Source: a virus. Taken from it: 35,243 bases of DNA. The notes beneath the pieces are model-generated. The model searched no databases, was not told where the DNA came from, and saw nothing but the letters and a program-made list of their open reading frames with translations. A program made the position numbers and the translations under genes. This document shows, piece after piece, positions 9,449 through 13,159 of this stretch. The DNA is taken from the IMG/VR virus record IMGVR_UViG_3300044858_002368, positions 1 through 35,243 of that record; one strand, given 5' to 3'. Each line of letters starts with the position of its first letter. Position 1 is the first letter of the stretch.

Positions 9449-9493
9449 GCGCCAAAATATGCGCCCATAGCGCCAAAATATGCGCCAAAATAT
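9449..9493. repeat. Three direct repeats of GCGCCAAAATAT
   Basis: Exact 12-base copies begin at 9449, 9470 and 9482 (spacing 21 and 12). On the lysis-operon strand each reads ATATTTTGGCGC. They lie just upstream of the first lysis gene and beside a second repeat family, an iteron- or operator-like arrangement. A binding protein is not identified. Confidence 0.75.
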
Positions 9494-9509
9494 ACCCCCC
9501 CCTCTTCCT

Positions 9510-9557
9510 ATTTATGCCCCCCCATTTATGCACCCCATTTATGCGCCCTATTTATGC
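9510..9557. repeat. Four direct repeats of ATTTATGC
   Basis: Copies begin at 9510, 9524, 9537 and 9550, spaced 14, 13 and 13 bases and separated by C-rich spacers (CCCC to CGCCCT). On the minus strand each reads GCATAAAT. The near-helical-turn-and-a-quarter spacing and AT cores in a GC-rich genome suggest protein binding or an origin-like region. Confidence 0.75.
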
Positions 9558-9656
9558 GCCCCTGCGCCAAAGCGGGCTGTCCGATTTTGCCCCGCAGCGC
9601 CCAAATCATCGAAAAAAGCAACACGCTCACGAAAAAGTTATCATAATAGTAGACGG

Positions 9657-9686
9657 ATAGTATTCGGTTAGCGTTTACTTAATCAA
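9657..9686 (-). promoter_or_regulatory. Candidate promoter for the lysis operon
   Basis: On the minus strand, TTGATT (9686-9681) and TACTAT (9662-9657) are separated by 18 bases, a fair sigma70-type match. It would produce a leader of about 180-290 nt containing both repeat families before the first lysis gene. The palindrome at 9690-9708 lies immediately upstream of its -35. Confidence 0.4.
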
Positions 9687-9689
9687 TCC

Positions 9690-9708
9690 ATGTGCATATC
9701 TTGCACAT
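9690..9708. promoter_or_regulatory. Perfect palindromic operator candidate
   Basis: ATGTGCA-TATCT-TGCACAT has two perfect 7-bp arms around a 5-bp spacer. It lies between the minus-strand lysis promoter candidate and the plus-strand ribozyme transcript. A degenerate copy with identical spacing is at 4985-5001 beside the HTH gene. No U tract follows, so it is unlikely to be a terminator. Confidence 0.6.
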
Positions 9709-9744
9709 ATAGATGCATGACTACAGATGTTTGACATTGCAGGT

Positions 9745-9750
9745 TATACT
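9745..9750 (+). promoter_or_regulatory. Candidate -10 box for the ribozyme/membrane-gene transcript
   Basis: TATACT is a good -10 hexamer and would start transcription near 9757, just before the ribozyme. A TTGACA hexamer at 9731 is only 8 bases away, too close to pair with it; the properly spaced -35 position (TACAGA) is poor. The promoter may need an activator, or may lie slightly elsewhere. Confidence 0.35.
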
Positions 9751-9760
9751 ACTCGAAAGA

Positions 9761-9832
9761 GCCGAAACCTAGCCCCGCCCAGCGGGGCGACGGTCTGCCG
9801 GACCTGACCGCCCGGCACTGATGAAGGCAGGT
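9761..9832 (+). ncRNA. Type II hammerhead ribozyme candidate
   Basis: All core parts occur in circularly permuted type II order. The stem II 5' strand is GCC (9761-9763) and GAAA follows (9764-9767). Stem III pairs ACC (9767-9769) with GGT (9792-9794) and is capped by a perfect 7-bp hairpin (9772-9788). The cleavage-site C is 9795, as in GUC. Stem I is TGCCGG/CCGGCA (9796-9801/9812-9817) with a 10-nt loop, directly followed by CTGATGA (9818-9824). Stem II closes with GGC (9826-9828), leaving A9825 bulged. Loop I ACCT (9802-9805) can pair with AGGT (9829-9832) as a pseudoknot. Cleavage is predicted between 9795 and 9796. Weak points are the 3-bp stem II and the extra A. Confidence 0.72.
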
Positions 9833-9907
9833 CACCCCACTAACAACACGGCCGCCGGCAAGGTCAACACCCCTGCCAGCGGCCACACTGAGAAGGACCC
9901 TCAGCTC

Positions 9908-10384
9908 ATGTACGATACTCAAACTCGTGCGCTTCTTGCAAGCAATGTTTTGATGTGGCTTGCAATCGGCTTCGGCGCTCTGCCCTGGTGGCTTGATGCC
10001 ACCTCGAGCAACGCAACGGTGGACTGGATCGTCGCCGGCGGCCTCAGCCTCGCGCTGATCTCCGTAAGCCTGATCCTCTCGGGATGCGTAACCCGCTTCG
10101 CCGAGGCTAAAGAAAAGGGCCACCTGACTACCGCCGCCCTGACTATCGCCCTCGGCCTTGTGCTGGTGGCGATCGAGGCCGGGATGACCCACGCCGGGCT
10201 TGCCTGGCTGGACGCCCGGAAGGATCTCGGGCCTGACGCCGCCCTCTGGGCCGTGTCGTTTGGTCTCTCTGCTTTCAATGTCTTCTCGCTTTACGCCTTC
10301 GCGCGTGACCTGAAGAAGACGCAGAAACCCGAGACAAGCGCCGGTAAGCTCCTCGCTTTCAAGCGCTGGAACAAGGTTGCCTGA
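9908..10384 (+). CDS. Four-helix membrane protein, lone plus-strand gene
   Basis: A 158-aa protein starting MYDTQTRALLASNVLMWLAI. An ATG at 9821 is in frame but lies inside the ribozyme core, so I choose 9908, preceded by AAGGA. About four membrane helices are visible (ASNVLMWLAIGFGALPWW; WIVAGGLSLALISVSLILSG; AALTIALGLVLVAIEAG; LWAVSFGLSAFNVFSLYAF). The tail is basic (KLLAFKRWNKVA). It stands alone between a candidate promoter plus ribozyme and a strong terminator, opposite to all surrounding genes: a moron-like unit. Superinfection exclusion or envelope change is a guess; the family is not recognised. Confidence 0.75.
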   Translation: MYDTQTRALLASNVLMWLAIGFGALPWWLDATSSNATVDWIVAGGLSLALISVSLILSGCVTRFAEAKEKGHLTTAALTIALGLVLVAIEAGMTHAGLAWLDARKDLGPDAALWAVSFGLSAFNVFSLYAFARDLKKTQKPETSAGKLLAFKRWNKVA

Positions 10385-10390
10385 TAAGAA

Positions 10391-10420
10391 ACCCCGCCCT
10401 AACACGGCGGGGTTTTTTTT
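10391..10420 (+). terminator. Rho-independent terminator, possibly bidirectional
   Basis: ACCCCGCC (10391-10398) and GGCGGGGT (10406-10413) form an 8-bp stem with a 7-nt loop, followed by a run of eight T (10413-10420). It ends the lone membrane gene. The T run overlaps the stop of the convergent virion operon. On the minus strand the same stem is followed by TTTCTTAT, so it may end both transcripts. Confidence 0.9.
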
Positions 10421-10931
10421 ATCCCTTGATAATCGTCGTCACTTCATCACCCGCAGCCAGCCCGCTCGTGAAGGTGATGCTGCTGCTACTCGTCTCGGTA
10501 TAGTCAGCCGTGATTTGCATCAGCAAACCGTTCAGAAACACCTGCAAGTCATTCGTGCCCGGATTGTAGCCGGCCGACAGGTTAAACAGCGTCTGCCCGG
10601 CGGTTGCCGTTATCGTCTGCGTCTGGGCAAAGCCAGGCGCGGAGAAGTTCAGATCGCTGAAAACCAGAGCGCCGGTCTTGTCCTTGATAAGGATGGAGTA
10701 GGGCGACTGGGAAGCAATGATATTGGACGGGCTGCCATTGCGTGACGGATACCCCGCCAGCGTGCGGATCGGCTGCGCCGCCGTGGTGGTGAGACTTGCG
10801 TCCCAGTAGACGGTGATCGGGTTCGTCTCGGGGTTCGTGCCCGGCGAACCAATGTAAATATATCCATTCTCGAGCGGCTCGCCGGCGCGATCGTAGAAGA
10901 GCAGGAAGGGCTGTGTGACGATAACGCTCAT
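10419..10931 (-). CDS. P22 tailspike-like head-binding adaptor / short fibre
   Basis: A 170-aa protein starting MSVIVTQPFLLFYDRAGEPL. Residues 1 to about 105 resemble the head-binding domain of P22-type tailspikes (ENGYIYIGSPGTNPETNPIT, VYWD, then PSNIIASQSPYSILIKDKTG). The C-terminal part (TATAGQTLFNLSAGYNPGTN; FLNGLLMQITADYTETSS) is a small beta domain common in phage tail fibres. There is no beta-helix or enzyme domain, so it probably acts as an adaptor that docks another fibre. Its position after the ejection genes matches that of the P22 tailspike gene. It is coupled to the upstream gene by ATGA. Confidence 0.75.
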   Translation of the reverse strand: MSVIVTQPFLLFYDRAGEPLENGYIYIGSPGTNPETNPITVYWDASLTTTAAQPIRTLAGYPSRNGSPSNIIASQSPYSILIKDKTGALVFSDLNFSAPGFAQTQTITATAGQTLFNLSAGYNPGTNDLQVFLNGLLMQITADYTETSSSSITFTSGLAAGDEVTTIIKG

Positions 10932-13159
10932 TCTGTGGCCTCACGTCCGCGGCGGGGTTGGATCATTGACTGACGCTGGCCGGCGCTGATGGCCGTATAA
11001 GCGCCAATGGCGGCAGGGGTGGTCACGGCTTTGGCAATAATGTTCGCCTGCGTCTCGTTAAGCGCCCTGCCAGCTTTGGCCTGCTGTATCAGGTTCAGCG
11101 CATCCTTGGCGCTCTGGCCCTGAACGCGGGTCAGGAGCGTAGCGATATCATCATAAATGCCCATGCGCCGGGCGGCGTCCGCTTCCGGTGTTTTGCCGGT
11201 GATGCTCTGTACAATCATCCTTGACGCATTGACCGGCTCACCGCGAAGCACTGTTCCAAGGATGCCCGGCGATGCGACTTCCTCAACCGCACGCCCAACC
11301 CCAAGGCGTTGCGCTGTCTTGGAGTTCGCCGCAACGGCAGCTGCCAGCTCAATGCCCGTCGCCTGCTCGTCCAGCACTTTGTAAAACTCTTCAGCATCAG
11401 CATCGCCAAGCAGGGCGCGAACCTTGGCTTTATTGTTCCGGCTTCGAAGAGCCGACAGCCCGGCCATCAGCTCCTTGATTTCCGTGTTGGGGTTGGCCGC
11501 CGACACTTTCAAGTTGCCAAGCGTATGATCCAGCCCGGAGCGCAGCCCCAGCTTCATGGATTGCTGCACAGCCGGGCTTTGACCCGACAGCATATCCCTG
11601 ACTTCCTTGACGGTCGTTGCGCCGGAAAGCAGGTCGAAGCCAAGCTCTGCCGCCTTGACTTCCTCGATCGTCTCGCGCGCCAGGCCAAGGGCAGCCCGGT
11701 ATTCCGGCACCTGGTCCATAACCAGCTTGCGGATCTCGCGGGCGTTCTTTGCGGCCAGCGATTGCACCTCGCTTTTGCCGCCCATGACGCCGGCAGGGGT
11801 TCCATAGGCAATCTCGTTCAGCCCGCGTGTAATCAGGTCCCACTGTTCGACGTTCGGGAGTTCCTCAAACGTGATGGTGCCGTCAGGGTTCTGCCTGAAC
11901 AGGATCTGCGGCGCCCGCGCGCTGGGGTCCATGGACCGGATCTTGTTGGCGAAGTTCAACGCCTCTGGCGGAATGAGCCGCTGCCAGTTTTCCAGCTCGC
12001 GTCCGGCGAGCGTGGAATAGTCGATCGGGCGCGAATAAGCGGCATCGTAAAGTTGCTGGCGTTGCGCGGCTGTGGCCTGGCGGATATTGCCCTGCACATC
12101 CACAATGTCTTGCGGCTGTCCAAGGAAACGATTGAAAGCCCCGCGCATCTCCTGTTCACCACGCAGGTTACGGGCAAGCAGGGCTTTCTGGGCCGCATCC
12201 CCGCCGGACCCGAACGTAATCGCCGCATCCAGAAGGTTCTTTGTGTTGGGCGTCACCTCGGCCAGCATGGACGAACTGCCGGCGCGCTGAAGGGCGGCCT
12301 GGGCGGTCGGAAAATCGCCGTCCTGAATAGACGCAACAATAACCTTGGCGGCGTCATTGGAAATGCCGAACTGTTTAGCAAAGTCCCTGATCGGTTTATT
12401 GCCAAAAGCCTGCAATGCATTCCTGACGCCAACCTCAACAGGGGCCGCAAGAGCGCCAAGCGCACCGCCAAGCATCCCGCCAATGGTGGCGCCCGTAACA
12501 GCGCCGCCCATGCGCTGCTCGGCGGTTCCCTCGCCAGCGCCGAACCCCGCAACGGCGCCCTCAGCTGCGCCAAGTCCTACACCGGCGCCAAGACCGCCAA
12601 GCACGGCGCGGCCAAGTGTCGGGGCGGCTTGGAGCGCACGGCCGGCGGCTTGGAGCGGAACCAGCGGCAGGGTTGCGGCGGTTCCAAGGGCGGCCTGAAG
12701 TCCGAAAGTTTCAGCCGGCTTCTGCTCCTGCATGGCGGCCTGATATTCGCGGATCGCCTGCGTATAGCGCGGATCGCTCGTCATCATGCCCACGGCTTCG
12801 TCAAAATACTCCCCGACGAAAGGAACGCCCTTGATGGCTGACAGCGCCCCGGCGCGAAGCGGCTCTTGTGCAATCATTTCCTGCTGCGTGGCGGCCCGGC
12901 GCGCTGCGGTAGGCGCTTCGCCTTGCATCATGCGCTGGATCTCGGCCTGATCGCTCGTGGCGTAATCCGGGCTCGTGAAGGTCAATTGCCCGTCAGGTTT
13001 GCGGTAGATCTTCCCACCGCCTGCCGTTTCCTGCACAAGCTCAAAGCCCTGTGGAACCCGACCGGCGCTCTGGGCATCCAGCTTGGCCTGCGCGGCCAGC
13101 ATCCGGCGCAGAAGCTTGGCTGCCTCGCGGTCTTCGTCGGTAAGTTCCTGTGGAGGCAT
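10928..13159 (-). CDS. Internal virion/ejection protein (P22 gp16-like position)
   Basis: A 743-aa Ala/Gln-rich, mostly helical protein starting MPPQELTDEDREAAKLLRRM. Residues about 155-250 contain long Gly/Ala hydrophobic stretches (ALGTAATLPLVPLQAAGRAL; TGATIGGMLGGALGALAAP) suited to membrane penetration. The rest is coiled and charged. It is the third of three consecutive ejection-type genes, as gp7-gp20-gp16 in P22. Such proteins leave the capsid with the DNA and build a channel across the envelope. Assignment rests on order, size and composition; no lysozyme-type motif was seen. Confidence 0.72.
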   Translation of the reverse strand: MPPQELTDEDREAAKLLRRMLAAQAKLDAQSAGRVPQGFELVQETAGGGKIYRKPDGQLTFTSPDYATSDQAEIQRMMQGEAPTAARRAATQQEMIAQEPLRAGALSAIKGVPFVGEYFDEAVGMMTSDPRYTQAIREYQAAMQEQKPAETFGLQAALGTAATLPLVPLQAAGRALQAAPTLGRAVLGGLGAGVGLGAAEGAVAGFGAGEGTAEQRMGGAVTGATIGGMLGGALGALAAPVEVGVRNALQAFGNKPIRDFAKQFGISNDAAKVIVASIQDGDFPTAQAALQRAGSSSMLAEVTPNTKNLLDAAITFGSGGDAAQKALLARNLRGEQEMRGAFNRFLGQPQDIVDVQGNIRQATAAQRQQLYDAAYSRPIDYSTLAGRELENWQRLIPPEALNFANKIRSMDPSARAPQILFRQNPDGTITFEELPNVEQWDLITRGLNEIAYGTPAGVMGGKSEVQSLAAKNAREIRKLVMDQVPEYRAALGLARETIEEVKAAELGFDLLSGATTVKEVRDMLSGQSPAVQQSMKLGLRSGLDHTLGNLKVSAANPNTEIKELMAGLSALRSRNNKAKVRALLGDADAEEFYKVLDEQATGIELAAAVAANSKTAQRLGVGRAVEEVASPGILGTVLRGEPVNASRMIVQSITGKTPEADAARRMGIYDDIATLLTRVQGQSAKDALNLIQQAKAGRALNETQANIIAKAVTTPAAIGAYTAISAGQRQSMIQPRRGREATE

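Follow-up and report, generated by a model that had tools for sequence, protein, structure and literature searches.

A predicted type II hammerhead before a lone phage membrane-protein gene, at a leader slot that some relatives fill with other elements

The stretch of DNA analysed here in full (the window; 35,243 nucleotides of IMG/VR record IMGVR_UViG_3300044858_002368) almost certainly carries a genuine type II hammerhead ribozyme at positions 9760-9836 of the plus strand, as judged from its sequence and from those of its relatives. We regard as probable, taken as a whole, the explanation that this hammerhead stands in the 5′ untranslated region (5′UTR) of a lone, moron-like gene, where its most likely role would be to trim the mRNA to a protected and insulated 5′ end. 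The window element adds to a known type; the novelty lies in the comparison of the leader slot across relatives. The parts of the leader and of its gene are the following, with the evidence for each in brackets.

9752-9764, plus strand: CTCGAAAGAGCCG, probable relic of the 5′ end of an HDV-like ribozyme, with P1 and P2 strands (13-mer identical in relatives)
9760-9836, plus strand: type II hammerhead, whole match to RF02276 (32.7 bits; fold)
9761-9763, plus strand: 5′ strand of stem II, GCC, pairing with 9826-9828 (100% paired in six relatives; invariant, no covariation)
9764-9767, plus strand: core GAAA, of which A 9767 forms with T 9794 the closing pair of stem III (sequence, RF02276 match)
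9767-9794, plus strand: stem III, made of ACC 9767-9769 with GGT 9792-9794, an internal loop and a distal hairpin (four distal covarying pairs)
9795-9796, plus strand: predicted self-cleavage site, C 9795/T 9796, following GUC with C17 at 9795 (family anatomy)
9796-9817, plus strand: stem I, TGCCGG 9796-9801 with CCGGCA 9812-9817, and its loop 9802-9811 (one compensatory pair)
9805-9834, plus strand: pseudoknot of loop I TGACC 9805-9809 with GGTCA 9830-9834 (100% paired, one compensatory pair)
9818-9824, plus strand: core CTGATGA (sequence, RF02276 match)
9825-9828, plus strand: bulged A 9825 and 3′ strand of stem II, GGC 9826-9828 (relatives have this bulge too, as A or T)
9850-9884, plus strand: second 5′UTR hairpin, GGCCGC...GCGGCC, between ribozyme and ribosome-binding site (fold)
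9888-9904, plus strand: hairpin CTGAG-AAGGACC-CTCAG with the Shine-Dalgarno sequence in its loop (paired stem changes, fold)
9908-10384, plus strand: gene of a 158-residue membrane-type protein without known family (17-18 IMG/VR relatives)
10391-10421, plus strand: intrinsic terminator, ACCCCGCC...GGCGGGGT and a T run (sequence)

A preliminary description of this DNA had proposed a type II hammerhead and called for a search with the Rfam covariance models. In a permissive scan of positions 9600-10000 with Rfam release 15, RF02276 (Hammerhead_II) indeed matched end to end, over model positions 1-66 of 66, albeit with a score under the curated cut-off. The E-value was 6e-5 for these 401 nucleotides against all families, 1.3e-6 for the whole record against RF02276 alone and 0.0099 in a third scan; searching the record with RF02276 alone gave no second match elsewhere. 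The score of 32.7 bits lies below the RF02276 gathering score of 37 bits, and 0 matches were obtained for the window at the curated Rfam release 15 thresholds. A score below gathering does not by itself exclude family membership, since this limit is a curator's score line and not a structural feature. At the same locus, the equivalent module scores 43.7 bits in relative L006 and 42.4 bits in L011, above the cut-off, and 36.7 bits in L007, barely below it. The proposed identity is thus backed by the covariance model, by relatives at the same locus and by the covariation described below.

The core elements that had been claimed were all found in place. CUGANGA (9818-9824), GAA(A) (9764-9767) and the NUH triplet (9793-9795) are present letter for letter, and the model match, the fold and the pairing in relatives agree on three stems in type II order, open at stem II. 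The predicted cut between 9795 and 9796 follows from the established anatomy of the hammerhead family. For the trimmed element, energy minimization yields the nested hammerhead three-way junction (-30.8 kcal/mol). A longer piece (whole leader, 96 nt) folds otherwise, without the hammerhead, and for L006, L007 and L011 the nested hammerhead, computed without its pseudoknot, is surpassed by a competing fold that is 1.4-3.3 kcal/mol more stable.

Covariation was counted on six sequences, five of them distinct, a small set in which the counts are not independent events. Overall, 99.1% of the cells are paired, 6 of the 23 pairs are changed on both sides, and none of the slid pairing registers comes near the hammerhead register. 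Four of these changes fall in the distal hairpin of stem III (7 bp, 9772-9778/9782-9788) and one, from G-C to A-U, in stem I; stem II and inner stem III are invariant and therefore uninformative on covariation. The pairing of loop I with the tail following stem II, also part of the preliminary description, does exist, but its register had to be corrected from ACCT/AGGT, which loses two pairs in 2 of the 5 distinct relatives, to TGACC/GGTCA, whose 5 pairs are intact in all 5, one of them with a compensatory change. The comparison of compensatory changes that had been suggested thus gives helices and a pseudoknot that covary across the six relatives. Homologues that keep the gene while breaking the core had been named as evidence that would speak against a hammerhead; no relative with a decayed hammerhead core was seen. 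Some homologues do have the gene but no hammerhead, and in these another element replaces the whole leader.

The 3-bp stem II with its bulged base had been considered unusual, a view that did not hold. It recurs in 18 of 97 non-redundant examples among the matches listed, mostly as GCC/NGGC with a single base bulged before stem II, and the bulged examples include elements of L122 with scores up to 66 bits. Elements with a bulged stem II form a recurring sub-type. GUC occupies the cleavage position in 95 of these 97 related elements, again among the matches listed.

The location in the leader of a single membrane-protein gene was correctly described: the element lies in the 5′UTR of a gene that stands alone and has a terminator of its own. 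This gene is on the plus strand and the flanking tail genes and endolysin are on the minus strand; this layout, together with the terminator, suggests a moron-like arrangement. Two weak Rfam matches at 10336-10423, rnk_pseudo and NsiR1, correspond simply to the terminator hairpin. Relatives of the protein were found in 17-18 other IMG/VR records. Neither the DNA nor the protein was matched in phage records (GenBank/INPHARED), a single scan of GTDB genomes returned no relative of the protein, and no PHROG or Pfam family matched it over cut-off. Its AlphaFold model has a mean pLDDT of 59, too low for a structure search, and contains helices only. The protein start, MYDTQ or MNYLTQ, is kept in relatives and the upstream reading frame is not; we therefore place the start at ATG 9908, which leaves the ribozyme wholly within the 5′UTR. 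For the same reason, ATG 9821, inside CTGATGA, was rejected as gene start.

Two further hairpins separate the ribozyme from the start codon. The one at 9850-9884 is common to the window and to L014, a relative without ribozyme. The stem of the Shine-Dalgarno hairpin shows paired changes in L004, L005, L015, L017, L018 and L139; across the family, the window included, it reads CTGAG/CTCAG, CTCAG/CTGAG, CTTAG/CTAAG, GCGGG/CCCGC, ATGAG/CTCAT and CCAGA/TCTGG. This hairpin is present in the leaders of all relatives, whichever ribozyme, or none, precedes it. A scan for sigma-70 promoters found none. Ahead of the leader, the intergenic DNA at 9485-9562 of the window holds five degenerate copies of CCTATTTATGCCCCCC.

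Among relatives, the same slot before the gene is filled in five ways. A hammerhead precedes the gene in the window and in L002, L003, L006, L007 and L011. It stands alone in the window and in L003. In L005, an HDV-like ribozyme stands alone and the leader shows no upstream gene. In L006, L007 and L011, an HDV-like ribozyme is followed by a small gene, then by the hammerhead and the membrane-protein gene; L002 has a small gene and the hammerhead, and its contig ends on the upstream side. A GC-rich hairpin is found in L004, L015, L017, L018 and L139, with a related hairpin in L014. Finally, the leaders of L008, L009, L010 and L013 are plain, without these elements.

The HDV-like ribozymes of L005, L006, L007 and L011 were recognized as full-length matches to HDV-F-prausnitzii (RF02682) of 40.0-42.1 bits, for a cut-off of 44, with E-values of 2e-4 to 6e-4 (64 kb, all families) and of 1.6e-8 to 5.3e-8 per record. 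In these leaders the nested double pseudoknot P1-P2-P3-P1.1-P4 is found, with CNAA before P2′; read by eye, the P2 strands are AGAGC/GCTCT and the CNAA motif is CCAA or CTAA. In the window's own record RF02682 gave no match up to E 10. The GC-hairpin leaders gave no Rfam match to a ribozyme. Their hairpin, GGGGCGGG-CACGG-loop-CCGTG-bulge-CCCGCCCC, stands shortly before the gene, at the presumed mRNA start, in L004, L015, L017, L018 and L139 and belongs to no Rfam family. Upstream, L008, L009, L010 and L013 show direct repeats TGTAAC...TGTAAC and a small palindrome, then TTTGACAATCA, possibly a promoter and operator common to the family.

The small genes differ between phages, that of L006 from that of L007 and L011 and from that of L002. 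The L011 gene encodes 45 residues; no other relative of the L002 gene was found; the L006 gene has relatives elsewhere, and the one checked has no ribozymes beside it. A 71-residue gene without assigned family (L143:3339-3554, minus strand; L137:151-366, minus strand) is transcribed away from the ribozyme leader. It is present only with the HDV-like and hammerhead cassette and might be its regulator. The literature searched, mostly without subscription papers, contained no report of a hammerhead, an HDV-like ribozyme and a hairpin interchanging before one gene.

The breakpoints between these leaders fall at module edges. Between the window and L002, 93% homology extends over 9761-10982 and begins at the first paired base of the hammerhead. 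Between the window and L003, the leader is identical from 9464 to about 9900, the gene about 74% so, and the change occurs at the start codon. The proteins of L011 and L013 share 138 of 140 residues, one behind a ribozyme leader and the other behind a non-ribozyme leader; at the DNA level, homology breaks off 600 nt upstream and is found again from the hammerhead's last bases onward (L143:4009). The window also keeps what may be a sign of an earlier state. The 13-mer CTCGAAAGAGCCG is identical at the head of the HDV-like ribozymes of L005, L006, L007 and L011, and identity with HDV-like leaders is 84-85% over 9716-9764 or 9725-9764, including the promoter-side stretch before the 13-mer. Sequence identity of this extent suggests that 9752-9764 is the scar of a deletion leading from an HDV-like ribozyme to the hammerhead. 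Because the protein-family tree has few well-supported forks, we claim no count of independent leader swaps.

A wider sample was drawn from viral contigs scanned for one stem I spelling, giving at least 114 stretches that do not form an unbiased sample. Over 1.18 Mb of loci, these stretches and others that had been fetched, a structure-based motif finder located 107 type II hammerheads, 97 of them non-redundant, among the matches listed; the count of 107 is enriched, most loci having been fetched by the stem I pattern. The reversed sequences of the same loci, a fair control, gave 0. Among the matches listed, a Shine-Dalgarno sequence and a start codon follow 91 of the 97 elements, at a median of 28 nt past CUGAUGA, as compared to 44% of random positions with both within 160 nt under the same loose rule. 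On the antisense side, such a start was found for only 22 of the 97 listed. Similarly, the stop codon of an open reading frame (ORF) precedes 77 of the 97 listed, at a median of 3 nt ahead of GAAA; an ORF stop lies within 120 nt of 26% of random positions.

Arrays of such elements were also observed. Record IMGVR_UViG_3300033551_000003 has 20 RF02276 matches at E <= 0.01 (weakest 0.006) and 2 RF02682 matches, its array lying at 42.6-58.7 kb and including the stretch L082. In L082, nearly every gap between small genes holds a ribozyme, HDV-like in two gaps. Hammerheads and HDV-like ribozymes are there equally spaced with respect to stop and start codons, the distance to the start codon being 16 nt for the HDV-like ribozymes and 11-21 for the hammerheads. 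On the phage contigs L122 and L117, several hammerheads are accompanied by twister-P1 and RAGATH-28 RNAs.

The cut of a type II hammerhead falls at the junction of stems III and I and leaves a downstream product that is flush with stem I and has a 5′-OH; that of an HDV-like ribozyme falls at the first base of the ribozyme itself. In the window, the transcript would fold during its synthesis and cut itself between 9795 and 9796, and the leader portion nearest the promoter would be discarded. The mRNA would be left with a 5′-OH end flush with the stem I hairpin and locked by the pseudoknot, followed by the second hairpin and by the hairpin displaying the Shine-Dalgarno sequence. Such a uniform and protected end would be shielded from decay that depends on the 5′ end, and the gene would be insulated from whatever promoter or upstream gene recombination places in front of it. 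An HDV-like ribozyme in the same slot would likewise leave a flush, structured 5′-OH end, and the GC hairpin, which does not cut, would bring a stem close to the 5′ end. The shared outcome of these leader kinds would be a structured 5′ end before the ribosome-binding site. Fold identity, covariation, position, replacement among relatives and breakpoints at module edges are established by the comparisons above; the functional part, namely cleavage, 5′-end protection and insulation, we hold tentatively, at slightly less than an even chance.

That the element is a chance or dead look-alike is very remote: the window score is under the RF02276 cut-off, but the match is end to end (E 1.3e-6 in the record), relatives exceed the cut-off, reversed controls gave 0 and the stems covary. 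A rather unlikely alternative gives type II hammerheads the ancestral, general task of cutting long phage transcripts into single-gene mRNAs, the window holding a harmless remnant whose upstream gene was lost. The order of ribozymes and genes in L006, L007, L011 and L002 fits it, as do the ORF stop closely ahead of 77 of the 97 elements among the matches listed and the apparent start of a lost HDV-like ribozyme retained at 9752-9764; moreover, a processing role was proposed, and array cleavage seen in E. coli, by Perreault et al. 2011 (PMC3088659). A remnant is harder to reconcile with a core, stems and pseudoknot that are intact, no decayed copy being seen among relatives, with the lone HDV-like ribozyme of L005, whose leader has no visible upstream gene, and with the window leader moved intact onto a divergent allele in L003. 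Trimming with protection and insulation is favored, with modest confidence, over simple gene separation, because the leader kinds share a structured 5′ end and because RiboJ, of the same build, raises mRNA and protein. Nevertheless, a structured 5′ element is not essential, since L008-L010 and L013 do without any.

The ribozyme DNA could also serve as a short homology for swapping small gene cassettes, cleavage being secondary. We consider this improbable: breakpoints do fall on ribozyme edges, unrelated small genes lie between the same ribozymes (L006 vs L007/L011 vs L002) and arrays repeat near-identical hammerheads, but covariation indicates that RNA pairing is kept rather than DNA sequence, and HDV-like ribozyme and hammerhead swap although, a few bases apart, they have no useful homology in common. 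Control of cleavage by a ligand or protein, which would make the leader a regulatory device switched by a signal, is highly improbable. It has a precedent in glmS, and some relatives have alternative pairings that compete with the hammerhead; this pairing is however not conserved in the window, no conserved extra domain lies beside the minimal hammerhead, and the ribozymes and hairpins that replace one another are unrelated, with no common ligand site. For other hammerheads, the idea was raised in Perreault 2011 (PMC3088659).

We further propose, as a possibility that we still find somewhat doubtful, that phages carry interchangeable 5′-end modules. One and the same leader slot of a gene would accept a hammerhead, an HDV-like ribozyme or a GC hairpin, small accessory genes would be traded in ribozyme-bounded cassettes, and the ribozymes would act as natural insulators that free the mRNA of each cassette with a capped 5′-OH end, whatever lies upstream. 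The relatives offer a natural experiment in which the leader varies before almost the same protein, L011 having two ribozymes and L013 none, and their natural leaders are parts comparable with the RiboJ insulator.

Concerning known systems, pseudoknotted type II hammerheads had been given in the preliminary description as reported from bacteria and phages, in agreement with Perreault et al. 2011 (PMC3088659), who described type II hammerheads with a pseudoknot, clustered around phage genes, and put forward the transcript-processing idea. The window shares with these elements (RF02276, PMC3088659) the core, the permutation, the short stem II, the pseudoknot and the phage location, and intergenic clusters around phage genes count among the likenesses. 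It differs by the bulged base before a 3-bp GCC/GGC stem II, by its place ahead of a lone gene, in a leader that no other gene precedes, and by its replacement by other elements in relatives. HDV-like ribozymes (RF02682) occupy the same leader slot in L005, L006, L007 and L011, as well as two L082 gaps, but have an unrelated fold, and only a 13-nt probable relic is left in the window. The HDV-like (theta) ribozymes described in phages adjoin tRNA genes (PMC10879173), whereas those of the relatives stand in protein-gene leaders. RiboJ, an engineered 5′UTR hammerhead with a hairpin, increases mRNA roughly twofold and protein by a factor of two to ten, for which its authors suggest a gain in stability (PMC6206723). 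Its layout resembles that of the window, with promoter, hammerhead, hairpin, ribosome-binding site and single gene in this order and a 5′-OH hairpin end to be expected; RiboJ derives however from a plant satellite-RNA hammerhead, whereas the window element is natural, type II and pseudoknotted, so that the analogy is functional only. Finally, pistol, hatchet and twister sister were found near hammerhead and twister (PMC4604425, PMC10085705). Ribozyme classes co-locate near phage genes (PMC10085705, PMC4604425), for a reason stated to be unknown in 2023, and why thousands of small self-cleaving ribozymes lie there is still an open question (PMC10085705). In those bacterial neighbourhoods, different classes adjoin each other and phage genes, as they do in the phages studied here; in our case, by contrast, the classes exchange at one orthologous slot, and the breakpoints are visible.
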